Below are positions 37,847 to 61,968 of a stretch of DNA of 64,000 nt, piece by piece. The stretch comes from Carallia brachiata (Eukaryota > Streptophyta > Magnoliopsida > Malpighiales > Rhizophoraceae). The notes beneath the pieces were generated by a model. That model did not search any database, was not told the DNA's origin, and worked only from the letters and a program-made list of their open reading frames with translations. The stretch is from the NCBI GenBank assembly GCA_021464245.1, contig JADCRB010000027.1, positions 543,987 to 607,986 on the forward strand, read 5' to 3'. The stretch's first letter is position 1; the number at the start of each line of letters is the position of its first letter. The position numbers and the translations under genes were made by a program.

Positions 37847-38740
37847 NGTGCCCTCAGCTGGACTGCAAGATCGCCTGACGGAACTTTGCCGTGAGGATGT
37901 GCATCCAGGAACATTGGGAGCTGTTATACAATCCTGCAGGGTGTCAAACCCCGAACTTTCGAAGAATGGCGACCCGCGCACATGATATGGAGATAAGCAT
38001 CCAGACTTCCGGAGGCACGGTTCCCATCCAGTTGGACCAGCAAGGGGGCAGAAGGGAGATTAAGAAACCCAACAGCTCCGGAAAAGGAAAGAAGTGATGA
38101 CTGTTGAAGCCGCACCAGTAAAAGTGGGCGCCAAAGCTAAGGTAAATCCTCCGACCCAAATAACTCAGCCAAAACAACAGGAAAGGCGGAAGGTGACATT
38201 GCGAGAGTTGGAGCAGAAGCAGTATCCATTCCCCGACTCAGACGTCCCCGACATTCTTGAACACTCTTGGAGGCGAAGCTGATCGAACTCCCAGAGTGCA
38301 AGCGGCCGAATGAAAAGGATCGAGTCAGCGATCCGAGATTCTGCAAATATCACCGGATAGTAAGTCATCCAACCGAGAAGTGTTTCGTCCTGAAGGAGCT
38401 AATCATGAAGCTCAAAAGCCAGAATAAAATCATTCTGGACCAGGAAGGCAACCTCGGCAAACCAACCACCATCACTTCAAAACCATCAGAAGAGTGACAC
38501 ACCGTAAGGAGGAGCCGCTCGACAACAAAAAGTCGACAACGGAGAAGGTATATGAAGCTCTCCAAACCCTTCTCGCTAACCCTCAGCTGTTTATAGCTTT
38601 GCAATCAACAGAAGTGTGGCAAAATCAAGTCAGCAATACTCTCCAGACCTCAGCTGAATCACAGCCATCAAATGATTCAACTCGCGGAGCAGGCGGACCA
38701 AAATCACGTCGGATGTTACTCTGCTATCTCATTTTCAGAT
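37847..38740 (+). pseudogene. Copy A gag remnant with zinc knuckle
   Basis: The C-terminal part of gag is present in shifting frames (37891-38097, then 38094-38282, then 38267-38497). The knuckle-like motif CKYHRIVSHPTEKC at about 38340-38385 has the CxxH...HxxxxC spacing common in plant Tat gag proteins. The capsid part is missing on the left, beyond the N. Confidence 0.7.
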
Positions 38741-38799
38741 GAGGATCTCCTGCTGGGGTCCAAACCCCACAATCGGCCGCTGTATGTATCAGGCTATGT

Positions 38800-39805
38800 G
38801 AAGAACAGAAGGTCCGACGTATTCTGATCGACGATGGCTCAGCAGTCAATATTATCCCAAAATCCACCAAAAGGAGCTCGGCATCGGCATTGATGAATTA
38901 TCAGACAGCCGCTTGATGATTCATGGCTTTAATCAAGGAGACAGAAAGCAATTGGGATGATTCGCTTGGAGCTAACTATCGGTAATCTCACTTCTAGCAC
39001 TTTTCACGTGATTGATGCACGTACCACGTATAAGATGTTGCTAGGACGACCATGGATTCATGGAAATGGAGTTGTGCTCTCAAACCTGCATCAGTGCTTC
39101 AAGTACTACAATGGTGGTGTTCAAAAGGTCAATGCTGACTTAAAGCCGTTCGATGATGCTGAATCACATTTGGCGGATGCAGTCTTCTACACAGACACAG
39201 ACAATCCGGAGATCATTCCATCAAAAGCTACTTGGACTGGGGGCATCCACAAAAAGGGAAAAGCTGTCGAAGAACCTGCCAATGCTCAACCCCAGGCTCC
39301 AACAAATGAAAAGCTGCCGCAGCCTGCTGAACTCCGTCCGAAGGATGTTGCATCTTCAAGCTCCACTCCAGTCCTACGCTATGTGCCGAAGTCACGACGC
39401 TCAGAAGGTCAACCCCCTTTCTCTTATTGTATTGATCTTAAACAGGAGCAAGGTCATAGCCAACCCAAAACAAAGGAGCTGCACAACCTGAAGGAGACTT
39501 ACACTCTGCCGATACCAAAGATTGAGCCGGTTTTGTCTTCAAAACCATTAAAAGGCTTCGTCAAACCACACACGGGGGCAGTCGAAGGCGGCTCACTTCC
39601 AGAAAGAAGAACACATGAAGGATTTGATCCTAATGCATACAAGCTTTTGGCAAAGGCGGGCTATGACTTCTCAAACCCGAGCACAATGGGTACGCTGCCG
39701 TCCACACATGGCGCCGCTTCTCAAATCACAGTCCCGACCTGGCTTAGGCTATCAGGAGAAGTCACCTGTGCGGATCACGCTAAAGAGCCGAAGCCGAGCA
39801 GCTGA
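38800..39805 (+). pseudogene. Copy A aspartic protease region
   Basis: The retropepsin-like active site IDDGSAVNI is encoded near 38838-38865. After a frameshift near 38940 the frame 38957-39805 continues through RTTYKMLLGRPWIHG, the typical second conserved block of plant gypsy proteases, into a Pro/Ser-rich linker. Confidence 0.75.
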
Positions 39806-40139
39806 TGCACGTGCCATCACCACCACCACCAAACAGACAGGCTTATCCAGTCAAACAAAGAAGGTGAAGTCAGAGGTTCTGCATTTCATGTCACAATTAG
39901 CGAGGAGGCTGATTCACTCATCAGATGAAGTGAAGGAGGCTCCCCCGGAACTTGAAGATGGTGGCCAAGCAACTGTTGATGAACTCAAGGAGGTCAATCT
40001 TGGCTCTCCGGAAGATCCTCGACCTACATTTGTAAGTGCTTTACTTACTGCAGAAGAAGAGCAAGAATATGTTCAGGTATTAAGTCAATACAGGGACGTG
40101 TTCGCATGGAGTTACAAAGAAATGCCTGGACTTGACCCA

Positions 40140-40925
40140 AAATTGCGGTGCATCGTCTAGCAGTAAAGAAGGGTGTCCGTTCTGTCAAGCAGCCACAACG
40201 ACGGTTCCGCCCGGAACTCATTCCACAAATCGAGGAGGAGGTGAACAAGCTGATCAATGCCGGCTTCATCCGAGAGGTCACCTACCCAACGTGGATTGCC
40301 AACATTGTCCCGTAAGAAAGAAGAATGGACAGTTGAGGGTATGTGTTGATTTTCGAGATCTTAACAAGGCCTGCCCGAAAGATGACTTTCCATTGCCCAT
40401 AACGGAGATCACAGTCGATGCAACAACGGGTCACGAAGCATTGTCTTCATGGATGGTTCTTCAGGCTATAACCAAATCAGAATGGCACCAGAAGACGAGG
40501 AGTTGACAGCATTCCGCACCCCAAAAGGTATATACTGCTACAAAGTTATGCCGTTTGGATTGAAAAATGCTGGCGCCACTTATCAACGTGCTATGCAAAA
40601 AATTTTTGATGACATGCTGCACAAGATTGTAGAATGTTATGTTGATGACTTAGTTGTAAAGACTAAGAAGCGCAAAGACCACCTCGAGGATCTCAAGACA
40701 GTGTTCGAAAGACTTCGGAGGCATCAGCTCAAAATGAACCCTCTCAAGTGCGCATTCGGTGTCACATCAGGAAAGTTTCTTGGGTTCGTGGTGCGCCATC
40801 GTGGAATCGAAGTTGATCAGTCAAAGGTTGAGGCAATTCAAAAGATGCCTGAACCTAAAAACCTGCACGAGCTGCGAAGTCTACAAGGAAAGCTGGCTAC
40901 ATTCGCCGTTTCATCTCCAATTTAG
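40140..40925 (+). pseudogene. Copy A reverse transcriptase
   Basis: RT blocks are readable across two frames: VCVDFRDLNKACPKDDFPLP, then MPFGLKNAGATYQRAM and the catalytic YVDD in ECYVDDLVVKT. A 1-nt shift near 40315 and another near 40445 break the frame, and the thumb/connection is interrupted near 40905. Confidence 0.85.
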
Positions 40926-41066
40926 CTGGGAGATGTCAACCTTTCCATCGGTTGATGAAGAAGATGTCAACTTCGAGTGGGACGAAGCTTGCAGCAAAGC
41001 CTTTGAAGCATAAAGAAGTACCTTTCCAATCCACCGGTCCTAGGTGCTCCAATTCAAGGAAAGTCG

Positions 41067-42168
41067 TTGATTCTCTACATTGCAGCGCAGGAAAGATCTT
41101 TGGGAGCCTTGCTTGCACAGGAAAACGAGCAGGGAAAGGAAGTTGCCCTGTACTACTTGAGCAGAACACTAAACGGTCCGGAGCTGAGTTATTCGCCCAT
41201 TGAAAAGACATGTCTAGCACTGTTCTTTGCCATTGACAAGCTGAGGCACTACATGCAAGCTCACACGGTACGTCTCATTGCCAGAGCTGATCCTGTCAAA
41301 TATATCTTATCCAGACCAATCTTGTCAGGACGACTTGCCAAGTGGGCAGTAATCCTACAAAGCTACGACATTGTCTACGTGCCTCAAAAAAGTCAAAGGA
41401 CAAGCTCTAGCAGACTTCCTTGCAGATCACCCTGTTCCGTCAGATTGGGAGTTCACAGATGATCTTCCAGATGAAGAGGTCTTTTACATTGAGACACTAC
41501 CACCATGGACGATGTTCTTTGATGGTGCAGCAAGGCGTGATGGTGCTGGTGCCGGCATAGTGTTTGTCACTCCTCAACGACAAATACTACCATATGCTAT
41601 CATTCTCGGTGAGTTATGTTCAAATAATGTTGCTGAATACCAGGCTTTGATCATTGGTCTTCAAATGGCTGTCGATATGAAGATTCCAACTATAGAAGTC
41701 CATGGAGATTCCCAGCTCGTCATCAACCAACTTACAGGATTGTATGACGTGAAGAAAGAGGACCTTGCGCCTTACCATCAACGTGCTCGACAGCTAATGG
41801 ATGAATTTGAAAGCATCACCTTGGAGCATGTGCCTCGACGAGAAAACACTCAGGCAGACGCGTTGGCTAACCTGGCCACTTCTCTTGCAAAGTCAGAAAT
41901 CCAGGCTACAGTTGTTGCCGTATGCCAGAAATGGATAGTGCCACAAAGGATGATGAAGAAACTACAGCAGCCAACGCTGTATCTGTACGTCTCGCGGAGG
42001 ACGAGGATTGGCGCCAACCAATCATTGACTACCTACAGCACGGGAAGCTGCCCGAAGATCGTCGTCATAAGACAGAAATTCAACGACGAGCTCCCCGCTT
42101 CATATATCTCAAGGATGCTCTGTATCGAAGGTCTTTTGATGGAGTTTACTTCGCTGCCTAGCCAATGA
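41067..42168 (+). pseudogene. Copy A RNase H and archaeal-type RNase H
   Basis: The Ty3-type RNase H lies at about 41067-41400 (ALYYLSRTLNGPELSYSPIEK). A one-base insertion near 41390 shifts into the second domain at 41371-42168. That domain has the DEDD residues of an archaeal-type RNase H: FFDGAARRDGAG, NNVAEYQALIIGL, VHGDSQLVINQL and ENTQADALANLA. The second domain is the diagnostic feature of the Tat lineage. Confidence 0.85.
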
Positions 42169-42410
42169 AGAGGCAAAACAGGCTCTCACTGAAGCACATT
42201 CTGGTGTTTGTGGCGGACATCAATCGGGCCTAAGTTGCACTTCCAACTCAGAAGGATGGGATACTACTGGCCAACCATGGTACGTGATTCAATTGAGTTT
42301 GCTAAAACTGTCAAGCTTGTCAATTTCATGCGAATTACATACATCAACCACCGGAGCCACTGCATCCAACTGTCTCATCCTGGCCCTTTGAAGCTTGGGG
42401 TCTCGACTTA

Positions 42411-43250
42411 GTGGGGCCCTTGCCAAAGTCATCCCTGGGTCACCTGTACATCCTCGCAGCAACCGACTACTTCTCAAAATGGGCTGAAGCCATTCCACTA
42501 AGAGAGGTAAAGAAGGAGCATGTTGCCAATTTCATCCGGACTCATCTGATCTTTCGCTATGGAGTCCCTCGATTCATCATCACTGATAATGGTAAGCAGT
42601 TCTACAACAGCTTGATTGACAAACTCTGCGAGAAGTTCAAATTCAAGCAGTACAAGTCATCCATGTACAATGCCCCAGCAAATGGCTTGGCCGAAGCATT
42701 CAACAAGACCTTATGCAACCTGTTGCGGAAGGTAGTCTCTAAATCCAAAAGAGATTGGCATGACAGAATTCCGGAGGCATTATGGGCGTATCGTACAACT
42801 TATCGGACTCCAACACAGGCGACTCCATACTCACTTGTCTATGGTGTCGAAGCAATACTGCCGTTGGAAACACAGATTCCATCTCTGCGCATGGCTGTTC
42901 TGGAAGGACTCACACAGGAGGAGAATGCTCGCCTACGTCTGGATGAGTTAGAAGCCCTTGATGAAAGGAGGCTTGAAGCACAACAACAACTTGAGTGCTA
43001 CCAAGCCCGGCTCACCAACACGTTCAACCGCAGGGTCCGCCCTCGATCTTTTCAAGTTGGAGATCTTGTTCTTGCAGTGCGACGGCCCATCAACATGAAG
43101 CATCGGCCTGGTGACAAGCTTACTTCCAAATGGGATGGGCCATACCTAGTGCAGGAGGCCTATACTCACAACGCTTACATGCTGTCAGACCAAGAAGGCG
43201 TCCGAATCGGCCCGATTAATGGTAAATTTCTGAAACAGTATTATGTGTAA
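42411..43250 (+). CDS. Copy A integrase (core and C-terminal domains)
   Basis: A 279-aa open frame holds the DDE core: Asp in LAATDYFSKWAEA, Asp in IITDNGKQF and Glu in NGLAEAFNKTL, then a C-terminal domain with the block HRPGDKLTSKWDGPYLVQ. The HHCC zinc-binding N-terminus lies upstream (42200-42410) in a shifted frame, broken by a 1-nt deletion in the CxxC region near 42308. Copy B has the same protein with two substitutions in the stretch examined. Confidence 0.9.
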   Translation: MGPLPKSSLGHLYILAATDYFSKWAEAIPLREVKKEHVANFIRTHLIFRYGVPRFIITDNGKQFYNSLIDKLCEKFKFKQYKSSMYNAPANGLAEAFNKTLCNLLRKVVSKSKRDWHDRIPEALWAYRTTYRTPTQATPYSLVYGVEAILPLETQIPSLRMAVLEGLTQEENARLRLDELEALDERRLEAQQQLECYQARLTNTFNRRVRPRSFQVGDLVLAVRRPINMKHRPGDKLTSKWDGPYLVQEAYTHNAYMLSDQEGVRIGPINGKFLKQYYV

Positions 43251-43256
43251 ATATGT

Positions 43257-43295
43257 TTAAAAAAAAAAAGAAAAAAATCAAAAATCAAAAAAATC

Positions 43296-43327
<32 letters not shown>

Positions 43328-43350
43328 AAAAATAGAAAAAAAAAATCAAA

Positions 43351-43382
<32 letters not shown>

Positions 43383-43391
43383 AAAAAAAAG
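43257..43391 (+). repeat. Poly(A)/A-rich tract after integrase (copy A)
   Basis: An almost pure A tract with scattered T and G follows the integrase stop by a few bases. The matching T-rich tract in copy B is at about 55188-55282. It marks the start of the accessory region. Confidence 0.9.
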
Positions 43392-43708
43392 TTGCGAAGT
43401 CCCGATCTGAAAGACCAAGCGAAAATCCAAATCCAAACACCTGAGCCCAATTCAGAGTCCAACTCAAAAGCCTGAAAACTAAATTCCAAACCCAAACACT
43501 CAACCCAAATCCAAAAGTCCAGACTCCAAACTCAAACACTCGACCCAAGTCCAAAAATCCAAGTCTAGAAGCCCAAACACTCAACCCAAATTCAATTCAA
43601 AGCCCAAAACCCAAAAAATTCCAAGTTCCAAACACAGTCCAGAAACCAAGTTCAGAATCCAATCCAACTCCTGGCCCGCATGAGTATAAACTGTGAACGG
43701 CCCAAAAA

Positions 43709-43716
43709 TATAAAAG
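43709..43716 (+). promoter_or_regulatory. TATA box of the WOX-like ORF (copy A)
   Basis: TATAAAAG lies 95 nt upstream of the WOX-like ATG and is followed by a CA/CT-rich leader (catcagtctcaatcgatcttc). The same sequence, with little change, precedes the ORF in copy B on the minus strand (near 54945-54952). An internal promoter of this kind would make the gene independent of the LTR. By inference only. Confidence 0.5.
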
Positions 43717-43803
43717 CGACGGAGGGTTTGAGTCTGAAACTCAGCATCAGTCTCAATCGATCTTCACCACACACCAGACCTTTGCTCCTCTGCCACAAGA
43801 AAG

Positions 43804-44427
43804 ATGGAACCAGTTGCAGAACCTCAAGACAAGGGAGAAGAAAGGTCACCCCGCACAAGGTGGCAACCAACCATGGCGCAACTGCAAATTCTAGAGGAAG
43901 TCTTCCACAACAATGGAGGTATTATGCCTAATGCATCTCAGATTTACCAACTTGTCTCACGATTGCGCCCACTCGGGGCAATCGAAGGAAAAAATGTGTT
44001 TTATTGGTTCCAGAATCGGAGAAGCAGGAAGAAACCAGCACTGAGAGCTGATTTTTCCAAAGAACAGTCTGCTGTTCCGATGGTAGATCCCACCAGTACA
44101 ACTTCGCCGTCAAATGAAGCAGGTCCGAGTTCTTCCACCGCAATAGTCTCTCCACGGTATGTTCATCAAAGCCGTAGCCCATGGGAGCATGCACGCTGGT
44201 CCTGGTGGTCTTACGGAGTCAGCCAAGGGTTCATCCCTCCTAGGTACTTAAGTCTAGGAGGACATTTTCTAGCAGAAAGGAGTCATTCCGGCGAAACTTT
44301 GCCTCTCTTTCCAGAATATTCCGGCAGCATCAACCAGCCGGAAAGCGACGTCGACGTTGACATCAACATCATCGGCCCACCAGACGAGGTCGAGCTTGAC
44401 TTGGAGTTGCACCTCGGGCCCCGCTAG
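43804..44427 (+). CDS. WUSCHEL-related homeobox (WOX) protein carried by the retrotransposon (copy A)
   Basis: The intact 207-aa frame contains a WOX-type homeodomain at about residues 17-78. Helix 1 reads TRWQPTMAQLQILEEVF, a WOX-specific insertion follows (NNGGIMPNASQI), and helix 3 has the signature IEGKNVFYWFQNRRSRKK, where W, F, Q and N are the invariant DNA-contact residues. The IEGKNVFYWFQN text is most like the modern WUS clade rather than WOX13 or WOX9 types. The middle is Ser/Pro-rich, and the C-terminus is acidic and ends in LDLELHLGPR, an EAR-like (DLELxL/LxLxL) repression motif, as in WUS-clade repressors. I see no clear WUS-box. It lies between integrase and the 3' LTR, outside gag-pol. 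Copy B has a disrupted version. Function as a transcription factor is inferred from the domain. Confidence 0.88.
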   Translation: MEPVAEPQDKGEERSPRTRWQPTMAQLQILEEVFHNNGGIMPNASQIYQLVSRLRPLGAIEGKNVFYWFQNRRSRKKPALRADFSKEQSAVPMVDPTSTTSPSNEAGPSSSTAIVSPRYVHQSRSPWEHARWSWWSYGVSQGFIPPRYLSLGGHFLAERSHSGETLPLFPEYSGSINQPESDVDVDINIIGPPDEVELDLELHLGPR

Positions 44428-44446
44428 GACGGCCGACAAGATAAGG

Positions 44447-44553
44447 TGCAACGACTTCTGCAGCACGCGGCAACGACTTCCGCAGCACGCGCAACGACTT
44501 CCGCCACACAACGACTTCTGCACACACGGTAACGACTTTCGTGACACGCGTCA
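44447..44553 (+). repeat. Short tandem repeat (about 20-23 bp, five units) after the WOX-like ORF
   Basis: Units of the form CAACGACTTCYGCAGCACGCG recur five times with variable spacers. Copy B has a four-unit version on the minus strand at about 54140-54232. Confidence 0.8.
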
Positions 44554-44632
44554 GCCGCTGCCTCTTTTGTCTCTTATGCAGGAAAGGGACGTGGATGGCC
44601 CTACCGATTCTGCATACCTTTTTTGACTTTTC

Positions 44633-44658
44633 AAAAAAAAAAAAAAAAAAAAAAAAAA
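44633..44658 (+). repeat. Poly(A) tract between the two accessory ORFs (copy A)
   Basis: A run of about 25 A follows ttgacttttc. The copy B equivalent is a T run at about 54037-54054. Confidence 0.9.
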
Positions 44659-44672
44659 CTCTTTATTATTTG

Positions 44673-44681
44673 TATATATAT
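44673..44681 (+). promoter_or_regulatory. TATA box of the second accessory ORF (copy A)
   Basis: TATATATAT lies about 60 nt upstream of the ATG at 44736. In copy B the same leader (cacccctcagctcttc) is preceded by a TATATATATA tract near 54010-54020 on the minus strand. Confidence 0.4.
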
Positions 44682-44735
44682 CCTGCATGCCCGAGTTGTA
44701 ATATTCACCCCTCAGCTCTTCTTTCTCAAAAGAAA

Positions 44736-45038
44736 ATGGCTAGTCTCTGCACTTGTCTCAGGAAGTTCTTCGATCAAGAAGTTGGAGGCGCACGAGCTAA
44801 GAAAAGAAGGAGTAGTCTTCTTCGAGGGATCCCTAAAAGCCCTCGAAACTCAATCTCCAACGCCATCGGTGTCATGGAGTTCCAACTACTCTCCTTAGTT
44901 CACATCTACCACAGAGGGATGAGAAGCTGCAATTATCCTAATCTTTCTTTGGATGCAGCGACGTACAGGGAAGTTCCAACTACTCTCCTTACGTCGAAGC
45001 AGACTTGGAAATCATCACTACAGTCAGTCTCTCTGTGA
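44736..45038 (+). CDS. Unknown accessory ORF of the retrotransposon (copy A)
   Basis: A 100-aa basic frame starts MASLCTCLRKFFDQEVGG and ends in SLQSVSL. It is open in both element copies (104 aa in copy B, about five substitutions plus a changed tail). I do not recognise it. Within it the motif GAGTTCCAACTACTCTCCTTA occurs twice at nucleotide level (about 44876 and 44970), so part of it arose by local duplication. An overlapping frame (44623-44898) is open too, so coding is not proven. Confidence 0.45.
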   Translation: MASLCTCLRKFFDQEVGGARAKKRRSSLLRGIPKSPRNSISNAIGVMEFQLLSLVHIYHRGMRSCNYPNLSLDAATYREVPTTLLTSKQTWKSSLQSVSL

Positions 45039-45385
45039 GCCGGTCTTGAAGTTCCAAGTCCTGAGCCTTTCTCTTGGGGAGGTTGAAGTTCTTTGCCTAC
45101 TGGATCATCCTCACCAGAGCTCTGGAACTTTAAGAGATATAAAAAATCCTTTGCGGGCTATGGAAGCTCGAACGCACCTGGAACCAGAATATCAATTTTT
45201 ATATTGGCTGGGGTGCTAACTTTCTCAAGATCGTATCGGGTTCCTATTGTGATCCAACAACAACAGGCATGGTCAAAGATAGAAGACTCCAAGATTCAAT
45301 ATTCATCAGGACGTTTCCAAGTTTCAAACTGGACTTCAAGACTCGGTGCGGATCACGTCTGTAAAGTTCTTCCTTACCGACCCTT

Positions 45386-45399
45386 GAAGTGGGGGCATT
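45386..45399 (+). other. Polypurine tract (copy A)
   Basis: GAAGTGGGGGCATT directly precedes the 3' LTR, the expected site of plus-strand priming. Copy B has GAAGCGGGGGCATT at the same place. Confidence 0.75.
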
Positions 45400-45450
45400 T
45401 GTAAACATCATTTTCAAAAAAAAAAAAAAAAAAAAAAAAAAAGAGTCAGC

Positions 45451-45579
45451 AATTGCCGACTTCAAAGGTCGGCAATTCAACATTGGCTGGCCACCAATTC
45501 AATGGTGGCCAACCTAATATATAGAAAAATAAAAGGAAAAAAGATTCCTTTCCCATGTGATGTTCACATGGGAAAGGAA
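45451..45579 (+). repeat. Three consecutive inverted repeats in U3 of copy A
   Basis: Hairpin 1 (45451-45477) has a perfect 10-bp stem, AATTGCCGAC, with a 7-nt loop. Hairpin 2 (about 45485-45514) has an 11/12 stem (GGCTGGCCACCA) with a 6-nt loop. Hairpin 3 (45545-45579) has a perfect 16-bp stem, TTCCTTTCCCATGTGA, with a 3-nt loop. All lie just upstream of the LTR TATA box. Confidence 0.9.
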
Positions 45580-45582
45580 CCC

Positions 45583-45590
45583 TATAAATA
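45583..45590 (+). promoter_or_regulatory. LTR TATA box (copy A)
   Basis: CCTATAAATAGG lies 4 nt after hairpin 3. Copy B LTRs have the same CCTATAAATAG core (minus strand, near 53083-53094 and 62747-62758). Confidence 0.7.
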
Positions 45591-46234
45591 GGCCCCTGCC
45601 CCTCAGTTTAAAACACATTCAGCAAATCTGTAAACAGAAAAATTCAGAGAATTTGAGAGAAAAAGAAAATTTTGAAAATCTCTCAAGAAAATTTCTCCTT
45701 TTCTTACGTGCTTTTACTTAGCAGTATACTCTCCTAACTCCGTTTTGAGAAGATATTTCAGGGGTAAGGCCCAAAAAATTTGCTGTTCCATTTCTAAAGT
45801 TATTTTTAAATTTATATTCTTGGATCGTTCTAGCTGATTTCTGAGAATATAGAGTTAAAATATCAAATTACTACAAAGCCGGCTGGGATTAAGCCTCATA
45901 CGGCCCTCAGCAAAATCCAGGCAGCTCATGAGAACAAGTCTCTTCGACCCTCGGTGAAATTAAGCCAGATCGGCTCAGATCAGGTCTCTGCGGTTCTTAA
46001 CCGTAGTCAAAACGTCCAAATCAGATCCGGTTTCAGTCTCCCAGTTCAGAAAAATCTGTGGAATTTATTCTGTCAAGATCAAGCTCGTGCAGCCCTTGAC
46101 CGAGTCAAAAAAGAACACTAATCGGAGGATCTACGGAGATCGACCCCACGTAAATTTCCTTTCATTTTTACAATTTTTATTTGTAATTTATTTTTGTATT
46201 TTCGAGTTTAATTATTTTAGACTCGAAATTTACA

Positions 46235-48640
46235 CTTTATAATGATATAAACTATTGAATAATTGAATTTGTAAAAAAGAAAAATTAAAAAGAGATAAAC
46301 TATCAGATGTCGTTGAATGAAATTGTACTGTTATTTATTGCAATTTATTTGAAACTATTTAGTATTAGTCATTAAAAAAATGTTAGGCGTAGCATCATAT
46401 AGTCCAAGGCGAAAAAACAACATGGCGAGTGAGAAATTGACGGGTTAGAGACGGCCTGAATAGGTATTCGGTGAGTCTCACATGGTTTTTATTTTTTTAT
46501 TTTTTTTGTTTTGAAATTTTTACGAAAAAAATGATTAGATGTAATAAACCGATTAAATTTGCAATAACACAGATGGAAATATATAACACATCTTGCAAAT
46601 ACACTTGACCACTCATTGCATATATCAGTCTTGTTTAACATCTAGCATGCCAATAATAGTGTCGTTTCACATCTATTAAATTTAACCAAAAACTTACAGC
46701 TGTGTTTTTGTTCGAAAGTGTGTGAAAGATTGCAAGAGAAAGAGAGTAATGAGAAAATGGAATTTTCTCGGAAACTTTGTGTGGAAAAAATGCACACCCA
46801 TGCAACAACTTTTCTTTTTTCATGTTAGTGTTCATTATCCCATGCAATTGCCAAGAAAAGTGGTAAGAAGGAGGGTTTTTTGATGTGATTTTTTATTTAA
46901 TTACCAACAGAGCCCTTTCTTATATTCACAAAAAGAAAAAGAAAAAACTTAATAGCTCCTTTTACATAGTTTCAAAATTATGTAGATTAGAGATAATTGA
47001 GAATTAAAAAAAAGATAAATTATCAGATATCGTTGATGAGACTATATAACTATTTTAAACATTATTTAAATAAGTCACATAATATCACCTTGATAAGTAC
47101 ATTAATTAAAAAAAGGACATAATGTTATTTTTTAAATATTAATTTTCTTTTTATTACTTTCTCACAATTTGAAGTAACAATATAGTTCCATCCATTTTCT
47201 TTCTTTCTTTTCTACTCATCCAAATAAACGTATAGAAACATAATTTTCTTTTTTCATATTTTTTTCTCATTACTTTTTTTGACATCCTTTCTTTTACATC
47301 TTATTTCAAAATTCAAACACCCATAAATTTCAAAAGGAAAAAAAAAAATCAAAAAAACATGTGAGATCCATGTTGCCGCGCCAACCCGTCAGTTTTCTGT
47401 TTATTTCTTCGCGAAGCACTGTTACATTTTCAGACAAAAAAATATCTGAAACACTGCTCAAATGTAACTGATTGTATGTAATTTACAACTATTTGAATTT
47501 CAAGTGTAACGAAAAAGAAGAAGAAAAAATCACTTTTATTTTTTTACATATAAAATCTAACTAATTACACATTAAATCCACTTAATTATATTTAAATAAT
47601 ATTTTAAATACTTTTTATCCAAAAGTATAAGATTTTCCTTCTTCTCGTCGATCCAGTCAAACTCAGAGTCCATCAAAATTAGGGCGCGATATAATTGGTG
47701 CCGCTCAGAAAAGCGATGACGTCCCATCATTTGTATCATCGGAAAAGTCTTACGTTAAAAATTGACCTTAAAAAGCATACATTAGTCGTTGAAGATTCTT
47801 TGGAACTCAGTCAGCTATTTGTTTTACATCTTGGATTAAGTATGATTTTTTTTTTGAGCAACGTTTAGGTATGATCATTTTTTAATTTATGAAAACAACT
47901 ATTTGATTAATAAAAAAAATACATAACACATCTAAAATGATTGTCTGATTAGTATTTCGATGTATTTCTCTCCTTTTAGACCTAGGTTGGAGTTTTTGTA
48001 ATTTCCCTCAGAAGCAATGCCCTCCCTTAACTCTAAAAATTTTCAGTAAGCTGCGTGCCGTAAATTCAAAAGTCGTAAATATTGTGATTAGTCTGAAAAA
48101 AATTTATTTGGACTCAATAATACTTGAATGGTGGATTTTCTTCATAAGTTAATTGTACTAATAAAGCAACAATGATCCCGACCTCAACTCACATATTTGA
48201 TATAACGAATATATTAGAAATGAACTTTTTTTATCGTAAAAAAAACGAAAAATTTATGACGTGTATTATTCTCCTAATAACTCTATCAATACTCAAGTTT
48301 TACAATACATCGACCGAAAATACTTAAAACTGTTACCTTCATTGAATATATATCTTGTAATCGTGATCTCACTTTAAAGAAAACTAATACCTCATCACTG
48401 CAATTAAACAAAAAAAAAAAAAAAAAACTCTTAACTACATGTATCTTAGGCAGTATTAAAATGACTACACAATTTACTTAACAGTATTTAACGATTTATT
48501 TATTTTTTTTAAATTTAATAATCAAATTATCTATATTACTTTAATTCTATTTTAACCGTAATTAAAGAACTCTACCAAATATTTCACTCAAAATAATATT
48601 TTTTAAATCCCCACCTACACGGTAACTTAGCAACCCGGCC
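46235..48640. other. AT-rich intergenic DNA with repeat scraps
   Basis: Two short related stretches, near 46288-46330 and 47012-47050 (gataaactatcagatgtcgttg-like), suggest a dispersed repeat. A stretch at about 46760-46990 (ggaattttctcggaaac ... caattgccaagaaaagtgg) resembles the DNA on both sides of copy B, see findings. No gene is seen. Confidence 0.5.
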
Positions 48641-48726: not shown

Positions 48727-51700
48727 ATGGCTCCCCCAATTTATTTCTCCTTTCTGATCCTTCTTTTCCTCGTACCATTCCTCCTGCTTATCCTGAAGAG
48801 AAATAAGAACAATCCCAAAAAGCTGCCACCAGGGTCTTTAGGGTTACCCATTATAGGCCAAACACTCACTCTCCAGAGTGTCATGCGCATGAACACTGCA
48901 GAAGAATGGCTCAAAAGCAGAATAAAAAAATATGGGCCTGTCTCAAAACTGAATATTGTTGGATACAATACAGTGTTCATTCAAGGGCAGGCTGCAAATA
49001 AGTTTTTCTACACCAGTGATACCAAATTACTTTCGAACCAGCAGCCGACAACAATTAGAAGGATTTTGGGAGAAAGGAATATCTTGGAGTTGATTGGTCA
49101 TGAGCACAAGCGTGTGAGGGGAGCACTAACATCTTTCTTAAAACCCGAAGTGTTGAAGCAATATGTGGGAAAGATGGATCAAGAGGCTAGAAAGCATTTC
49201 GGATTGCATTGGCTTGGCAACCAAAAGGTTTCGGTACGTCATCTCTGTTTTGTGTTTTTCCTTTTTGGAAAAGCATTGGAGGATATAAAGAGGTAGACAA
49301 TAAAATGTCAATAATGTAACGGTAAAACATATTTGTGTAACAGTATTGATTTTTTGTGCAACAAAAAATAATGTTATATTTTCTTATACCATATTTTATT
49401 AATCTTGTTTCACAAATATTTATAATTATTGTATTATTGACAAATCTTCCGTCTTTTAGCCTCTGTCCTCCTAATGGAACCCTTCCTTTTTTTTAAGTGT
49501 CATTGTTTGCCTGAAAGCGGATTCTCCAATTTCACGATTTAAGATTTTTTAACAATACTGTATTTTAGAATTTGAGGTTATTTTTATAATTGTAAGTGTT
49601 ATCTCGTGCTACTTCCCAGCCTAAAAAAATTTACAAGAGATATCCCAATGATTGAGAATTTGTAAACATCTAATTTAGAGATTATGTGTTTGAATCAAGT
49701 GGAAGGATTTTTTTATAATGGCTTTATATTTGGACGAAGTGAATTTATTTTGTCTCACGATATATATATTAAGAATACATATATATATTTTTTATGTAGG
49801 TGTTACCATTGATGAAGGTTCTTACCTTCAACATTTTGTGCTCACTTATCGTTGGAATCGGACAAGGAGCAAAAAGAGAGAAACTGGCTGAACTTTTCTA
49901 CCAACTTTTGGACGGGGTCATAGCAATACCAATCAACTTGCCTTTCACCCGATTCAATCGTAGTCTCAAAGCAAGGGCAAAAAGTAGAAGCATGATATTG
50001 GATCTTATAAGTGAGAAAAGGGCAGCGCTGGAGCAGCACAATGCTTTTCCTCAGAAGGACTTAATCACTAGCTTGCTTAGTCTCCGAAACGAGGATAATT
50101 CGCCCTTATTATCCGATGAGGAGATCGCCGATAATGTCACGATCGTCATGATAGCCGGACATGATACTTCCTCCACCCTTCTGACTTTTATGGTTAGAAT
50201 TTTGGCCACTGAACCTACTATTTATGCGGGTGTCGTTCAAGGTACGAAAAAAGGGTCACGATTTTGTAACATGACTTGTTCTATTCAAAATTAAGTTAGA
50301 TTTTAGGGTTAAATGAACTTTTTGATATTTCTAATATATCATGAACTTTTATTTTTTTTAAAAGTATATCACGAAACTCTTCAGTTAGTCATAAATCTAT
50401 TGTGTCATCATTTCATAGGTAACATATTTCATTTCATTTTGAACATTTCAACCAGACATCTCCATTTCTAATTCAAACTTAAAAGTTTATGATTTTTGGA
50501 AAGATTTAAGGTTGAAATCTTAAAATAGATACAAAATTTGTTATAATGGAATGACGAAATGATAGATTTGAATCAATCAAAGAGTTCGTTTGTAGTCCAA
50601 AACGATAAAAGTCATGATAACTTTAAAAAGACTGAAAGGTTCACGGTTTTTTTTTTTTTTTTTTTTGATATTAACCCTAAATTTTGAACATCAACTATAT
50701 ATTGTAGACATTATTTTTTTCGTTGCCATCGCTATTTGTGAATACGAACAAGAGGAGATAGCTAAGAATAAGGCCCCCCGACGAACTTTTGACATGGGAT
50801 GATCTTGCGAAGATGAATATCCGTGGAGCGTGGCTATGGAGACTCTGAGGTATTATCCTCCTGCTTTCCTTGCCTTTAGAAGGGTCGTTCAGGATTTTGA
50901 GTACGAAGGATACCATATTCCCAAAGGCTGGCAGGTGAGAAATTAAATTGATTGTCTTTCTTACACATTTTCAACATATTATACTTTTGAAATTTCAAAT
51001 TTGAGAAGTAGGCAGCGAAACTGAATACCATTCAACACTACATAAATATCTTCTTTCTTTTGATTAATTACTTTTGACTGAAATTCGAACTCAAAATTTC
51101 AGTATTCAAAAATTTTAGTATCATTTTTTTTTCTATTAAAAGACTTATTGGAATCATAGTTACATAATAGGAGTAACTTTTTTTTCCATAAATTACACAC
51201 AATCTTTTTGTAGATTAAAACCCAAACTTTTACAATCGAAATCTAACTTTTACTATGGGCTGGCTCTAGTAACAATTAGATATATGGCCGCAAAAAGGAA
51301 AAATTCATAAGATTGTCCTGTGCGTGAAGTAAATTGCCTGATACCATGCCTAAGATATTGTAGTAAGTATAAAGGCCCGTTCCACTGGCTTCCACTTTTG
51401 TAGCAAGTATTCATAACTTAAATCGTCGCCTATAATTAAATCGATCTATGACATTGTTAAGGATAACTGGCGTGATATACAATGCAATTATCATGTAAAA
51501 ATGACATTTCTTATACAAAACTCTCACACTGTGAAATTTGAGAAAAATTAATTAGATGTATAGAGTCTTGGCTTTTTTTATTGAAATTATCATATGTCAA
51601 CCTATGAAGAAATTAAAACTGATCCACATTCTTATATATGTAAAGATTATTAAAAAAATTTCAACAGTTTTATTAATCCTAGTATTTCTCGAAATTGTTT

Positions 51701-52310: not shown

Positions 52311-53295
52311 TGTAAAGCGTAAATTTCGAGTCTAAAATAATTAAACTCAAAAATACAAAAACAAATTACAAATAAAAATTGTAAAATAAAAGAAAATTTG
52401 CGTGGGGTCGATCTCCGTATATCCTCCGATTAGTGTTCCTTTTTTGACTCTGTCAAGGCTGCACGAGCTTGATCTTGACAGAATAATTTCCACCGCTTTT
52501 TCTTGAACTGGATATACTGAACTGTATCTGATTTGGACGTTTTTGACTACGTTTAGGAACCGTAGAGATTTGATCTGAGCCGATCTTGCTTAATTTTCAC
52601 CGAGGGTCAAATGGACTTGTTCTCGGATGAGCTGCCTGGATTTTGCTGAGGGCCGTATGAGACTTAATCCCAGCCGGATTTGTAGTAATTTGATATTTTA
52701 GATCTATATTCTCATAAATTCAGATCTAGAGCGATCCAAGAATATAAATTTAAAAATAATTTAGAAATGGAAACAGCAAATTTTTGGGCCTTACCCCTGA
52801 AATATCTCTCAAAAAGGAATTAGGAGAGTATACTGCAGAGTAAAAGCACGTAAGAAAAGGGAGAAAATTTTCTTGAGAGATTTCAAAATTTCTTTTTCTC
52901 TCAAATTCTCTGAATTTTTCTGTTTACAGATTTGCTGAATCTTTTCAGAAAGGATGTACCCAACGTACAAAAATGTGAGAGAAAGGTAATACAAAAGAAA
53001 TTAAATGTTTTGCAATTCTCTGGAATTGCTTCTTCTTTTTTTTTTACTCGATGCCATGCAAGATCCTGGATCAATCTATTTATAGGCTAAGGGAATTTAC
53101 TATTCCACCTAACTTAGCCAGCCAATCTTGAAGAAAAAGGTAGCAGGTGCATGGATTTGCCATCCAATTTTGAAAATGCACAAGTCTGCCAGCCAAGTTT
53201 GAAGAAAATGCATGGATGTTTCAAACCAAATTTGAAGATGTCATGCAGCACGTGGTTACTTTTCAACCCCTTTTTTTTTTTTTTAATTGTTTACA
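52311..53295 (-). repeat. 3' LTR of copy B
   Basis: A 985-bp LTR running TGTAAACAATT ... GCTTTACA on the minus strand. A CACGTG G-box lies in U3 (53249-53254). TATA core and R-U5 are shared with copy A. Confidence 0.93.
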
Positions 53296-53642
53296 AATGC
53301 CCCCGCTTCAAGGATCGGTAAGGAAGAACTTTGCAGATGTGATCCGCACCGAGTCTTGAAGTCCAGTTTGAAATTTTGAGATGTTATGATGAACATTGAA
53401 TGTTGAAATCTTCTATCTCTGACCATACCTGCTGTTGTTGGATCGCAATGGAAACCGATATGATCTTGAGGAAGTTAGCAGCCCAGCCAATATAAAAATT
53501 GAAGTCTTGGCTCCAGGTGCGTTCGAGCTTCCATAGCCCGCAAAGGATTTTTTATATCTCTTAAAGTTCCAGAGCTCTGGTGAGGATGATCCGGTAGGCA
53601 AAGAACTTGAACCTCCCCAAGGAAGGCCCAGCACTTGGAACT

Positions 53643-53957
53643 TTAAGACCTGCACACAGAGAGACTGATGTGTAGTGATGATTTCCAAGTCTGCTTCGAC
53701 GTAAGGAGAGTAGTTGGAACTTCCCTGTACGTCGCTGCATCCAAAGAAAGATTAGGATAATTGCAGCTTCTCATCCCTCTGTGGTAGATGTGAACTAAGG
53801 AGAGTAGTTGGAACTCCATGACACCGATGGCGTTGGAGACTGAGTTTCGAGGGCTTTTAGGGATCCCTCGAAGAAGACTACTTCCTCTTTTCTTAGCTCG
53901 TGCGCCTCCAACTTCTTGATCGAAGAACTTCCTGAGACAAGTGCAGAGACTAGCCAT
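53643..53957 (-). CDS. Unknown accessory ORF of the retrotransposon (copy B)
   Basis: A 104-aa frame matches the copy A ORF at 44736-45038 from MASLCTCLRKFF through KQTWKSSL, with R-to-G and I-to-V changes and a longer, altered tail (HISLSVCRS). No stop or frameshift is present in the shared part. The function is unknown. Confidence 0.45.
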   Translation of the reverse strand: MASLCTCLRKFFDQEVGGARAKKRGSSLLRGIPKSPRNSVSNAIGVMEFQLLSLVHIYHRGMRSCNYPNLSLDAATYREVPTTLLTSKQTWKSSLHISLSVCRS

Positions 53958-54247
53958 TTTCTTTTGAGAAAGAAGAGCTGAGGGGTGAGTATTACAACTC
54001 TGGAATGCAAGATATATATATACATACGATAAAGATTTTTTTTTTTTTTTTTTTGAAAAGTCAAAAAGAAGGTACGCAAAATCGAGTAGGGACATCCACG
54101 TCCCTTTCCTGCATAAGAGACAAAAGAGGCAGCGGCTGACGCGTGTCACGAAAGTCGTTACCGTGTGTTGCAGAAGTCGTTGCCGTGTGCTGCAGAAGTC
54201 GTTACCGTGTGCTGCCAAAGTCGTTGCACCTTATCTTGTCGGCCGTC

Positions 54248-54854
54248 CTAGCGGGGCCCGAGGCGCAGCTCCAAGTCAAGCTCGACCTCGTCTGGTGGGC
54301 CGATGATGTTGACGTCGTCGACGTGCTTCCAGCTGGTTGATGCTCGGAATATTCTGGAAAGAGAGGCAAAGTTTCCGGAATAACTCCTTTCTGCTAGAAA
54401 ATTCCTCCTAGACTTAAGTATCTAGGAGGGATGAACCCTTGGCTGACTCCGTAAGACCACCAGGACCAGCGTGCATGCTCCCATGGGCTACGGCTTTAAT
54501 GAACATACCGTGGAGAGACCATTGCGGTGGAAGAACTCGGACCTGCTTCATTTGGGCGAAGTTGTACTGGTGGGATCTACATCGGAACGACAGACTGTTC
54601 TTTGGAAAAGCAGTTCTCAGTGCTGGTTTCTTTGCTTCTCCGATTCTGGAACCAATAAAACACATTTTTTCCTTCGATTGCCCCGAGCGGGCGCAATCGT
54701 GAGACAAGTTGGTAAATTTGAGATGCACTAGGAATAATACCTCCATTGTTGTGGAAGACTTCCTCCAAAATTTGCAGTTGTGCCATATTGGTTGCCACCT
54801 TGTGCGGGGTGACCTTTCTTCTCCCTTGTCTTGAGGTTCTGCAACTGGTTCCAT
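54248..54854 (-). pseudogene. WOX-like ORF of copy B, frameshifted
   Basis: Translated piecewise, this region matches the copy A WOX-like protein. It starts MEPVAEPQDKGEERSPRTRW at 54854. A 1-nt deletion near 54790 moves the homeodomain into the frame covered by 55128-54577, where MAQLQILEEVF through IEGKNVFYWFQNRRS is readable. A 2-nt deletion near 54628 shifts it again. The EAR-like end survives as LDLELRLGPR before TAG (54250-54248). The shared segments differ from copy A by a few residues (for example M-to-I and N-to-S in the loop). Confidence 0.8.
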
Positions 54855-55187
54855 CTTTCTTGTGGCAGAGGAGCAAAGGTTGGTGTGTGGTGAAGATCGG
54901 TTGACTGATGCTGAGTTTCAGACTCAAACCCTCCGTTGCTTTTATATTTTTGGGCCGTTCACAGTTTATACTCATGCGGGCCAGGAGTTGGATTGGATTT
55001 TGAACTTGGGTTCTGGACTGTGTTTGGAACTTGGAATTTTTGGGTTTTAGGTTTTGGATTGGATTTGGGTCGAGTGTTTGGGCTTCTAGACTTGGAAGCT
55101 TTTGAGTTGGACTCTGAATTGGGCTCAAGTGTTTGGGCTTGGATTTTCGGGTTTGGGTTTTCGCTTGGAGTTTCAGATCGAGACTTC

Positions 55188-55282
55188 CAATTTTTTTTTT
55201 TTTTTTTTTTTTTTTGATTTTTTTTTTTTTTTTGATTTTTTTTTTTTTTTTTTTGATTTTTTTTTTTTTTTGATTTTTTTTT
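55188..55282 (-). repeat. Poly(A)/A-rich tract after integrase (copy B)
   Basis: T-rich on the plus strand, with GA interruptions every 15-20 bases. Equivalent to 43257-43391 in copy A. Confidence 0.9.
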
Positions 55283-55291
55283 TAAACATAT

Positions 55292-56131
55292 TTACACATA
55301 ATACTGTTTCAGAAATTTACCATTGATTGGGCCGATTCGGACGCCTTCTTGGTCTGACAGCATGTAAGCGTTGTGAGTGTAGGCCTCCTGCACTAAGTAT
55401 GGCCCGTCCCATTTGGAAGTAAGCTTGTCACCAGGCCGATGCTTCATGTTGATGGGCCGTCGCACTGCAAGAACAAGGTCTCCAACTTGAAAAGATCGAG
55501 GGCGGACCCTGCGGTTGAACGTGTTGGTGAGCCGGGCTTGGTAGCACTCAAGTTGCTGTTGTGCTTCGAGCCTCCTTTCATCGAGGGCTTCTAACTCATC
55601 CAGACGTAGGCGAGCATTCTCCTCCTGTGTGAGTCCTTCCAGAACAGCCATGCGCAGGGATGGAATCTGTGTTTCCAACGGCAGTATTGCTTCGACACCG
55701 TAGACAAGTGAGTATGGCGTCGCCTGTGTTGGAGTCCGGTAAGTTGTACGATACGCCCATAATGCCTCCGGAATTCTGTCATGCCAATCTCTTTTGGATT
55801 TAGAGACTACCTTCCGCAACAGGTTGCATAAGGTCTTGTTGAATGCTTCGGCCAAGCCATTTGCTGGGGCATTGTACATGGATGACTTGTACTGCTTGAA
55901 CTTGAACTTCTCGCAGAGCTTGTCGATTAAGCTGTTGTAGAACTGCTTACCATTATCAGTGATGATGAATCGAGGGACTCCATAGCGATAGATCAGCTGA
56001 GTCCGGATGAAATTGGCAACATGCTCCTTCTTTACCTCTCTAAGTGGAATGGCTTCAGCCCATTTTGAGAAGTAGTCGGTTGCTGCGAGGATGTACAGGT
56101 GACCCAGGGATGACTTTGGCAAGGGCCCCAC
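55292..56131 (-). CDS. Copy B integrase (core and C-terminal domains)
   Basis: A 279-aa open frame with the same DDE residues as copy A: Asp in LAATDYF, Asp in ITDNGKQF, Glu in NGLAEAF. Differences seen from copy A are H/Q and F/Y near IRTQLIYRYG. The HHCC finger upstream (about 56131-56340) is in another frame. Confidence 0.9.
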   Translation of the reverse strand: MGPLPKSSLGHLYILAATDYFSKWAEAIPLREVKKEHVANFIRTQLIYRYGVPRFIITDNGKQFYNSLIDKLCEKFKFKQYKSSMYNAPANGLAEAFNKTLCNLLRKVVSKSKRDWHDRIPEALWAYRTTYRTPTQATPYSLVYGVEAILPLETQIPSLRMAVLEGLTQEENARLRLDELEALDERRLEAQQQLECYQARLTNTFNRRVRPRSFQVGDLVLAVRRPINMKHRPGDKLTSKWDGPYLVQEAYTHNAYMLSDQEGVRIGPINGKFLKQYYV

Positions 56132-56602
56132 TAAGTCGAGACCCCAAGCTTCAAAGGGCCAGGATGAGACAGTTGGATGCAGTGGCTCCGGTGGTTGATG
56201 TATGTAATTCGCATGAAATTGACAAGCTTGACAAGTTTTAGCAAACTCAATGAATCACGTACCATGGTTGGCCAGTAGTATCCCATCCTTCTGAGTTGGA
56301 AGTGCAACTTAGGCCCGATTGATGTCCGCCACAAACACCAGAATGTGCTTCAGTGAGAGCCTGTTTTGCCTCTTCATTGGCTAGGCAGCGAAGTAAACTC
56401 CATCAAAAGACCTTCGATACAGAGCATCCTTGAGATATATGAAGCGGGGAGCTCGTCGTTGAATTTCTGTCTTATGACGACGATCTTCGGGCAGCTTCCC
56501 GTGCTGTAGTAGTCAATGATTGGTTGGCGCCAATCCTCGTCCTCCGCGAGACGTACAGATACAGCGTTGGCTGCTGTAGTTTCTTCATCATCCTTTGTGG
56601 CA

Positions 56603-57475
56603 CTATCCATTTCTGCATACGGCAACAACTGTAGCCTGGATTTCTGACTTTGCAAGAGAAGTGGCCAGGTTAGCCAACGCGTCTGCCTGAGTGTTTTCTC
56701 GTCGAGGCACATGCTCCAAGGTGATGCTTTCAAATTCATCCATTAGCTGTCGAGCACGTTGATGGTAAGGCGCAAGGTCCTCTTTCTTCACGTCATACAA
56801 TCCTGTAAGTTGGTTGATGACGAGCTGGGAATCTCCATGGACTTCTATAGTTGGAATCTTCATATCGACAGCCATTTGAAGACCAATGATCAAAGCCTGG
56901 TATTCAGCAACATTATTTGAACATAACTCACCGAGAATGATAGCATATGGTAGTATTTGTCGTTGAGGAGTGACAAACACTATGCCGGCACCAGCACCAT
57001 CACGCCTTGCTGCACCATCAAAGAACATCGTCCATGGTGGCAGTGTCTCAATGTAAAAGACCTCTTCATCTGGAAGATCATCTGTGAACTCCCAATCTGA
57101 CGGAACAGGGTGATCTGCAAGGAAGTCTGCTAGAGCTTGTCCTTTGACTGCTTTTTGAGGCACGTAGACAATGTCGTAGCTTTGTAGGATTACTGCCCAC
57201 TTGGCAAGTCGTCCTGACAAGATTGGTCTAGATAAGATATATTTGACAGGATCAGCTCTGGCAATGAGACGTACCGTGTGAGCTTGCATGTAGTGCCTCA
57301 GCTTGTCAATGGCAAAGAACAGTGCTAGACATGTCTTTTCAATGGGCGAATAACTCAGCTCCGGACCGTTTAGTGTTCTGCTCAAGTAGTACAGGGCAAC
57401 TTCCTTTCCCTGCTCGTTTTCCTGTGCAAGCAAGGCTCCCAAAGATCTTTCCTGCGCTGCAATGTAGAGAATCAA
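56603..57475 (-). CDS. Copy B RNase H and archaeal-type RNase H
   Basis: Here the two domains are fused in one 290-aa frame. The Ty3-type RNase H occupies residues 1-125. The second, archaeal-type domain occupies about 145-285, with DEDD carried by FFDGAARRDGAG, NNVAEYQAL, VHGDSQLVINQL and TQADALANLA. This intact arrangement shows that the break in copy A is a secondary change. Confidence 0.9.
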   Translation of the reverse strand: MILYIAAQERSLGALLAQENEQGKEVALYYLSRTLNGPELSYSPIEKTCLALFFAIDKLRHYMQAHTVRLIARADPVKYILSRPILSGRLAKWAVILQSYDIVYVPQKAVKGQALADFLADHPVPSDWEFTDDLPDEEVFYIETLPPWTMFFDGAARRDGAGAGIVFVTPQRQILPYAIILGELCSNNVAEYQALIIGLQMAVDMKIPTIEVHGDSQLVINQLTGLYDVKKEDLAPYHQRARQLMDEFESITLEHVPRRENTQADALANLATSLAKSEIQATVVAVCRNG

Positions 57476-58395
57476 CGACTTTCCTTGAATTGGAGCCCAG
57501 GAGGTGGATTGGAAAGGTACTTCTTTATGCTCTCAAAGGCTTTGCTGCAAGCTTCGTCCCACTCGAAGTTGACATCCTTCTTCATCAACCGATGGAAAGG
57601 TTGACATCTCCCAGCTAAATTGGAGATGAAACGGCGAATGTAGGCCAGCTTTCCTTGTAGACTTCGCAGCTCGTGCAGGTTTTTAGGTTCAGGCATCTTT
57701 TGAATTGCCTCAACCTTTGACTGATCAACTTCGATTCCACGATGGCGCACCACGAACCCAAGAAACTTTCCTGATGTGACACCGAATGCGCACTTGAGAG
57801 GGTTCATTTTGAGCTGATGCCTCCGAAGTCTTTCGAACACTGTCTTGAGATCCTCGAGGTGGTCTTTGCGCTTCTTAGTCTTTACAACTAAGTCATCAAC
57901 ATAACATTCTACAATCTTGTGCAGCATGTCATCAAAAATTTTTTGCATAGCACGTTGATAAGTGGCGCCAGCATTTTTCAATCCAAACGGCATAACTTTG
58001 TAGCAGTATATACCTTTTGGGGTGCGGAATGCTGTCAACTCCTCGTCTTCTGGTGCCATTCTGATTTGGTTATAGCCTGAAGAACCATCCATGAAGGACA
58101 ATGCTTCGTGACCCGTTGTTGCATCGACTGTGATCTCCGTTATGGGCAATGGAAAGTCATCTTTCGGGCAGGCCTTGTTAAGATCTCGAAAATCAACACA
58201 TACCCTCAACTGTCCATTCTTCTTTCTTACCGGGACAATGTTGGCAATCCACGTTGGGTAGGTGACCTCTCGGATGAAGCCAGCATTGATCAGCTTGTTC
58301 ACCTCCTCCTCGATTTGTGGAATGAGTTCCGGGCGGAACCGTCGTTGTGGCTGCTTGACAGAACGAACACCCTTCTTTACTGCTAGACGATGCAC
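57472..58395 (-). CDS. Copy B reverse transcriptase
   Basis: A 307-aa frame covers RT from the FRPELIPQIEEEV block through VCVDFRDLNKACPKDDFP, FMDGSSGYNQIRM, MPFGLKNAGATYQ and the catalytic YVDD, to the connection region (YIRRFISNLAGRCQPF). It ends at a frameshift just before RNase H. Copy A has the same domain in broken frames. Confidence 0.9.
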   Translation of the reverse strand: MHRLAVKKGVRSVKQPQRRFRPELIPQIEEEVNKLINAGFIREVTYPTWIANIVPVRKKNGQLRVCVDFRDLNKACPKDDFPLPITEITVDATTGHEALSFMDGSSGYNQIRMAPEDEELTAFRTPKGIYCYKVMPFGLKNAGATYQRAMQKIFDDMLHKIVECYVDDLVVKTKKRKDHLEDLKTVFERLRRHQLKMNPLKCAFGVTSGKFLGFVVRHRGIEVDQSKVEAIQKMPEPKNLHELRSLQGKLAYIRRFISNLAGRCQPFHRLMKKDVNFEWDEACSKAFESIKKYLSNPPPGLQFKESR

Positions 58396-61747: not shown

Positions 61748-61768
61748 TTGATGCTGAACACCTGTAAA

Positions 61769-61769
<1 letters not shown>

Positions 61770-61799
<30 letters not shown>

Positions 61800-61910: not shown

Positions 61911-61968
61911 TCGGCTCCCCTTTTACCTTTTTTTTTTTTTTAAGGAACAAGAGATGGGAGGTGAAGAT

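Follow-up and report, generated by a model that had tools for sequence, protein, structure and literature searches.

A WUSCHEL-like reading frame between the integrase and the 3' LTR of a Tat-type Ty3/gypsy retrotransposon in Carallia brachiata

A Ty3/gypsy retrotransposon of Carallia brachiata carries, 3' of its integrase, 5' of its 3' LTR and on the same strand as both, an intact and intronless open reading frame of 207 aa (43804-44427, + strand) that resembles the stem-cell regulator WUSCHEL (WUS). Positions are those of the window, i.e., the whole stretch of 64,000 nucleotides of contig JADCRB010000027.1 analysed here. Judging from its sequence, we propose that this frame may be an accessory gene derived from WUS and kept for a WUS-like effect, a reading to which we give a probability of about 0.45. 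It would be a known kind of event, with a cargo that is apparently new as far as we searched.

Two Copies of the Element in the Window

The window holds two copies of one Ty3/gypsy element in opposite orientation. Copy A (37848-46241, + strand) is missing its 5' part; the only N of the window (37847) stands directly at its left edge, so that copy A is either 5'-truncated or cut by an assembly join, and the truncation may be such a join at that N. Pfam recognises along it a reverse transcriptase fragment (PF00078, 40449-40925), the first RNase H, that of the reverse transcriptase (PF17917, 41067-41462), a second RNase H that is the signature of Tat elements (PF13456, 41371-42168, 88.9 bits) and an integrase frame of 279 aa (rve, 42411-43250), all on the + strand and in the gypsy order of reverse transcriptase, RNase H and integrase; the 3' LTR, which begins TGTAAACA, extends over 45400-46241 (+). 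Copy B (52311-63043, − strand) is complete, with both LTRs, gag, reverse transcriptase, two RNase H domains, an intact integrase frame of 279 aa (55292-56131, −) and its own WOX copy. Its LTRs (52311-53295 and 61993-63043, −) begin TGTAAACA and end TTTACA, and the element is flanked by a 5-bp target duplication, GTTGC; paired TG..CA LTRs and a target duplication are what defines a complete LTR retrotransposon. A second RNase H is reported for Tat elements in the accessible text of PMC6317226 and PMC9289625, and the predicted pair of RNase H domains (PF17917 and PF13456) supports membership of the Tat lineage, hence the label Tat-type used here.

The first-pass annotation had described an intact 207-aa WOX frame on the coding strand of a Tat-type element, between integrase and 3' LTR, and the coordinates, the Pfam homeodomain (PF00046) and the dual RNase H all agree with this description. 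Its 207 codons exceed the maximum of 128 that an ATG frame attained when 43251-45400 was shuffled by mononucleotides 500 times. A TATAAAA (43709-43715, +; a consensus match only) lies 95 bp 5' of the WOX ATG and is also kept in copy B, so an internal promoter at 43709 is possible. The WOX copy of element B (54248-54854, −) has its start and stop at alignment positions equivalent to those of copy A; nine small deletions and, at codon 122, a stop in frame disrupt it. The gene is thus present at this place in 2 of 2 copies, and intact in one of them; the earlier claim of carriage in two copies holds in that sense, but copy A is an incomplete element and the gene of copy B is broken.

One has to consider whether the frame could instead be a host WOX gene or pseudogene beside an inserted retrotransposon, or part of a segmental duplication, as copy A, without its 5' part, abutting the N and incomplete in outline, would allow. 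Copy B speaks against this, with the gene between integrase and 3' LTR and the whole bounded by LTRs and a target duplication, as do the similarity between the copies, which stops at the LTR edge and not in the flanking DNA, and the lack of introns. We hold this explanation to be very improbable, and a host gene next to an inserted element was rejected because the gene of copy B lies inside paired LTRs with a target duplication.

Several other features of the window deserve to be recorded. The first ~217 bp of the copy A LTR (45400-45616), including a TATAAATAG of its own, are unlike the LTRs of copy B, which suggests a putative exchange of the promoter region. Between the two LTRs of copy B, the longer BLAST block has 860 identities, 38 gaps and 15 mismatches in 913 columns; the 62 substitutions counted in the MAFFT alignment of the same pair are inflated by a 69-base repeat difference. 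A second conserved stretch lies 3' of the WOX frame, a frame of ~100 aa starting MASLCTCLRKFFDQ (44736-45038, +; in copy B from 53957, −), whose first 95 codons differ by 3 bases between the copies (R25G, I40V); the ORF containing it has no Pfam match. Exons of a cytochrome P450 gene are found between copies A and B, at 48727-50294, and a tandem array with units of ~366 bp, 96% alike, at 9231-10334. Host genes are represented by an unbroken ORF of 512 aa (5916-7454) and by an unbroken MYND-type gene of 632 aa (24272-26170), 92% identical over its full length to a protein of Rhizophora mucronata, the next named matches being at 83-84% (Erythroxylum, at 83%, among them), which fits a host in or near the Rhizophoraceae.

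Probable Assignment of the Frame to WUSCHEL

All modules of the predicted protein are encoded on the + strand: a WUS-type homeodomain delimited by Pfam and by alignment with WUS (residues ~18-77, 43855-44034; PF00046, E 2.3e-12, 47 bits for a cut-off of 22.9), an exact WUS-box TLPLFP (residues 165-170, 44296-44313), a stretch that we read as acidic, DVDVDIN (residues 182-188, 44347-44367), and an EAR-like motif, LDLELHL (residues 198-204, 44395-44415). An origin of the frame from WUS is very probable on the basis of the homeodomain length, the WUS-box, the ranking of the database matches and the best PDB matches; the tree described below was not used for this assignment. Our estimate is tempered by a starred branch of that tree and by the occurrence of EAR-like motifs in other WOX clades.

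A homologue search among proteins of 114-362 aa returned 513 candidates, 419 of them at E <= 0.001, and the best 120 of these 419 were inspected. Many of the 120 are named WUSCHEL; the top one covers 50% of the query at 43% identity, and none of the matches listed exceeds 53% identity. The label Rhizophora mucronata is absent among these 120 matches, in a database that holds at least one protein of this species. The spacing from RW to WFQN is 47 residues in the ORF, in Arabidopsis WUS and in all 120 matches listed (best of 419), vs. 46 in STENOFOLIA, a WOX1-type protein; as the homologues were picked by similarity, it is STENOFOLIA that provides the informative contrast. TLPLFP is held by 120 of the 120 matches listed and LxLxL within the last 40 residues by 116 of them (again the best of 419), and homeodomain, WUS-box and EAR modules align with 22 of the inspected homologues. 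Among solved structures, Arabidopsis WUSCHEL comes nearest in sequence (6ry3, E 2.9e-18). In the AlphaFold model (mean pLDDT 60.9), confidence is confined to the homeodomain, and 49 of the 207 residues reach a pLDDT of 90 or more; the model has 11 matches in the PDB at E <= 0.001, all of them WUS or STENOFOLIA chains, with WUS first.

The homeodomain is ~50% identical to that of WUS, and R19, W20, K63, N64, Y67, Q70, N71 and R75 of the ORF stand at WUS R38, W39, K82, N83, Y86, Q89, N90 and R94. According to the accessible text of PMC7203112, WUS R38, K82, N83, Y86, Q89, N90 and R94 read DNA bases or bind the backbone; these seven contact residues are conserved in the ORF. Lesser contacts are altered, with K92 replaced by R, A93 by S and R96 by K, while R100 stays R; in the same text, A93 touches the TGAA motif and K92 and R96 are backbone residues. 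The position of WUS S36 is taken by R17 in the ORF. A WUS S36R protein, as described there, bound a TGAA probe like the wild type, and its pattern on TAAT was shifted to mainly monomeric. The accessible part of PMC9781121 attributes EAR repression domains to WUS, WOX5 and WOX7 and places the EAR motif in all three WOX clades; an EAR-like motif, therefore, supports WUS without being diagnostic of it on its own.

Homeodomain trees were built from 86 and from 31 rows, over 67 columns; the 31-row tree includes 24 of the 120 inspected homologues, picked by hand. The element protein falls outside the starred group of WUS rows in each tree (99/93 in the 86-row tree, 97/91 in the 31-row tree), on the side of STENOFOLIA and four WOX rows that were entered by hand. 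The branch of the element protein is ~3.6 changes per column long, and a starred branch may wrongly exclude such a long row. When the element protein was held with WUS in the 31-row set, the likelihood exceeded that of the free tree by 2.33 log units, and this placement is not rejected (AU p 0.658). Taken at face value, the WOX tree proposed in the first-pass annotation speaks against a plain WUS placement; given the extreme branch and the higher likelihood of the constrained tree, we count it neither for nor against.

Divergence of the Copies and Constraint on the Frame

Between copies A and B, 18 silent and 2 replacement changes separate the integrases (pS 0.092, pN 0.003; one-sided P 5e-10), and this silent excess indicates that the element lines diverged mainly while functional, carrying the WOX gene. 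A single recent accident confined to these two copies, which the earlier annotation had named as evidence to the contrary, is unlikely, given integrases that differ at 9.2% of synonymous vs. 0.3% of non-synonymous sites and a gene carried by both elements. The two copies look mosaic: 144 codons of reverse transcriptase (40449-40880 vs. copy B) are identical, the integrase differs at 9% of silent sites, and it is as if the left halves had been recombined, or homogenised in the assembly.

The WOX frame has 26 substitutions in 607 aligned bases between A and B. Over all codons, 9 changes are silent and 14 are replacements (P 0.057); leaving out codons 180-188, which lie beside a 5-base gap, the counts are 8 and 9 (one-sided P 0.024), and codons 1-80, the homeodomain part, have 5 silent and 2 replacement changes. 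pN/pS is 0.33-0.46 vs. 0.03 for the integrase, the WOX frame being the less constrained of the two (Fisher P 0.0097). These counts are consistent with weak constraint on the frame, and we see about an even chance that the gene has been kept at least partly by selection.

The nine small deletions are all in the WOX copy of B, with none in copy A. Some of them may be assembly noise, unpolished long-read repeats being suspected, as both copies have an unusual abundance of small indels (38 vs. 45 substitutions over the 4,533 aligned bases of 37848-42400); the integrase, with no indel in 840 bases in either copy, tells against noise, and the two host ORFs (512 and 632 aa) have no break. The same small indels, together with the one N, could be taken to mean that the WOX stretch was misjoined into the element by the assembly. 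Two copies that have diverged by the substitutions counted above and that have the same surroundings on both sides make such an artefact extremely improbable.

A far more serious possibility, somewhat short of even odds in our opinion, is that the frame is a passenger, i.e., a WUS cDNA transduced by chance and without function, in which case the open frame of copy A would reflect recent luck and former constraint as a host gene. The broken gene of copy B and the high pN/pS of WOX relative to the integrase are what one would expect from this, and plant LTR elements are well known to transduce genes (accessible text of PMC7264820 and PMC13317346). Against it stand the enrichment of silent changes between the copies and the fact that homeodomain, WUS-box, EAR-like motif and a frame of 207 codons have outlasted ~50% divergence of the homeodomain; moreover, no closer protein hints at a late capture among the matches listed, in a database where Rhizophoraceae proteins seem scarce. 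In a drift simulation with substitutions only, started from this ORF and continued to ~54% homeodomain identity (1,000 runs), 0.7% of the runs remained without a stop and 3.4% kept TLPLFP. The model suggests that most of the sequence divergence would have accrued under constraint, either within the element or, before that, in a host gene; as the divergence may predate capture, the simulation is no proof of selection inside the element.

Probable Capture, Possible Role and Known Systems

WUS-clade genes of Brassica napus and its progenitors have two exons in 21 cases and three exons in 19 (accessible text of PMC6482515), and the WOX frame described here has no intron, which is why its capture as a spliced mRNA appears highly likely. 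We propose that a Tat-type Ty3/gypsy element acquired a WUSCHEL message after splicing, the presumed route being a template switch at reverse transcription, and that later rounds of transposition passed the gene on as an accessory ORF located 3' of integrase and 5' of the 3' LTR. It could be expressed from the genomic RNA, from a spliced message or from the internal TATA promoter. Since the main DNA contacts, the WUS-box and the EAR-like motif are kept, the likeliest product would be a WUS-like repressor, a nuclear WUS-type DNA-binding protein whose WUS-box and EAR motif would recruit TOPLESS-type co-repressors to WUS-type sites.

The product might, alternatively, act mainly on the element itself, binding its own LTR or leader and tuning its transcription. 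Eight motifs were counted in four stretches, the three LTRs and the WOX leader, and 3 of these 32 tests, uncorrected, gave P < 0.05. Both LTRs of copy B contain a G-box, which has been reported as a WUS site (P 0.02-0.03, for one palindromic site that is counted on both strands), and TGAA shows a mild excess in the WOX leader (9 vs. 5.2 expected, P 0.04). On the other side, the copy A LTR is without a G-box, and TTAATSS, TTAATGG, TGAATGA, TAATGAA, TTAATGAA, TAAT and TGAA are not enriched in any of the three LTRs. With no broad enrichment of WUS-type sites in the LTRs for these eight motifs, the leader included in the test, we consider a mainly self-acting product improbable.

If the frame is an accessory gene kept for a WUS-like effect, the benefit to the element would presumably be a more stem-cell-like, or less defended, state in the cells that feed the germline. 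That the benefit goes through the state of the meristem or germline is, however, a speculative suggestion, with odds well below even. The plant germline arises from shoot stem cells, and the route of plant transposons to it is an open question, which an element with its own WUS-like gene makes testable. Whether stem cells are a bottleneck for transposon amplification is asked in PMC7560203, in whose accessible text the expression of transposons at the vegetative stage rises there. WUS maintains the stem-cell niche (PMC7203112) and is linked to the exclusion of RNA viruses from it (PMC10589665), again in the accessible text of both papers. An effect of the latter type might also harm an element with an RNA stage, so that any effect could go in either direction.

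In its fullest form, our proposal is that the lineage adopted a stem-cell regulator: a WUS-like repressor, with a DNA preference altered by R17 at the position of WUS S36, would act in shoot or floral meristems, hold a stem-cell or poorly silenced state and thereby raise germline transmission. We consider this complete chain doubtful, a little more so than the meristem or germline benefit taken by itself. LONELY GUY, like WUS, is linked to cytokinin and meristem control; were the adoption real, it and the LONELY GUY-type domains of Citrus elements would suggest that plant Gypsy elements have captured meristem regulators more than once. Retroviruses carry host growth regulators, and a WUS-bearing element would be a plant parallel; adoption would make it the plant counterpart of retroviral oncogene capture.

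As for novelty, the titles and abstract beginnings of the papers listed in our searches of open PubMed Central full text showed no report of a WUSCHEL-bearing retrotransposon, and homeobox and WUSCHEL are absent from the main text of PMC11963269, PMC7264820, PMC6317226, PMC11728184, PMC12786077, PMC9289625 and PMC13317346. A screen of 121 angiosperm genomes reported AlkB, B3, YgdH (LONELY GUY-type), ArgoL2 and others (accessible text of PMC9289625). The earlier remark that no described element is known to carry such a factor is in line with our search of open PubMed Central, where Gypsy elements with B3 and LONELY GUY-type domains were found and none with WUSCHEL. A scan of IMG/VR, from which the window's own genome may be excluded, gave 6 pattern matches and 0 relatives. 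Longer proteins, of ~442 to ~1,410 aa, were searched with the query padded by X to a length of 806; none of the 741 candidates reached E <= 0.001.

Compared with WUSCHEL itself, the ORF has a homeodomain of WUS length, TLPLFP, an EAR-like LxLxL and the seven DNA-contact residues; it differs in being encoded by a retrotransposon, intronless, 207 aa long and only ~50% identical in the homeodomain, in having R17 at the S36 position and a serine at that of A93, in an acidic stretch that comes after the WUS-box, and in a C-terminal LDLELHL in place of the SLELSLN, or a similar motif, of most aligned WUS proteins. Among mobile elements, maize Bs1 is not known to be a Tat element and carries other genes than WOX. 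It is comparable in that host gene sequence was transduced into an LTR retrotransposon (accessible text of PMC7264820). Retand and Grande share with our element an extra ORF between pol and the 3' LTR, and their TRP28 is predicted to bind DNA; in the accessible text of PMC11963269 and PMC7264820, these ORFs are antisense in nearly all described cases and no homeodomain is named, whereas the WOX ORF is in sense orientation. The orchid Tat/Ogre-like elements with AlkB (2-ODD) are also Tat-family Gypsy elements with an extra ORF of recognisable function; theirs is an m6A RNA demethylase with in vitro activity, and ours, by sequence, a transcription factor, and they are known from 38 and 23 consensus sequences in two Phalaenopsis species, vs. 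two copies here (accessible text of PMC9289625). According to the same text, YgdH (LONELY GUY-type) is present in Gypsy elements of Citrus and B3 in those of Aegilops tauschii; these elements likewise bear domains of plant developmental regulators, from protein families other than WOX.
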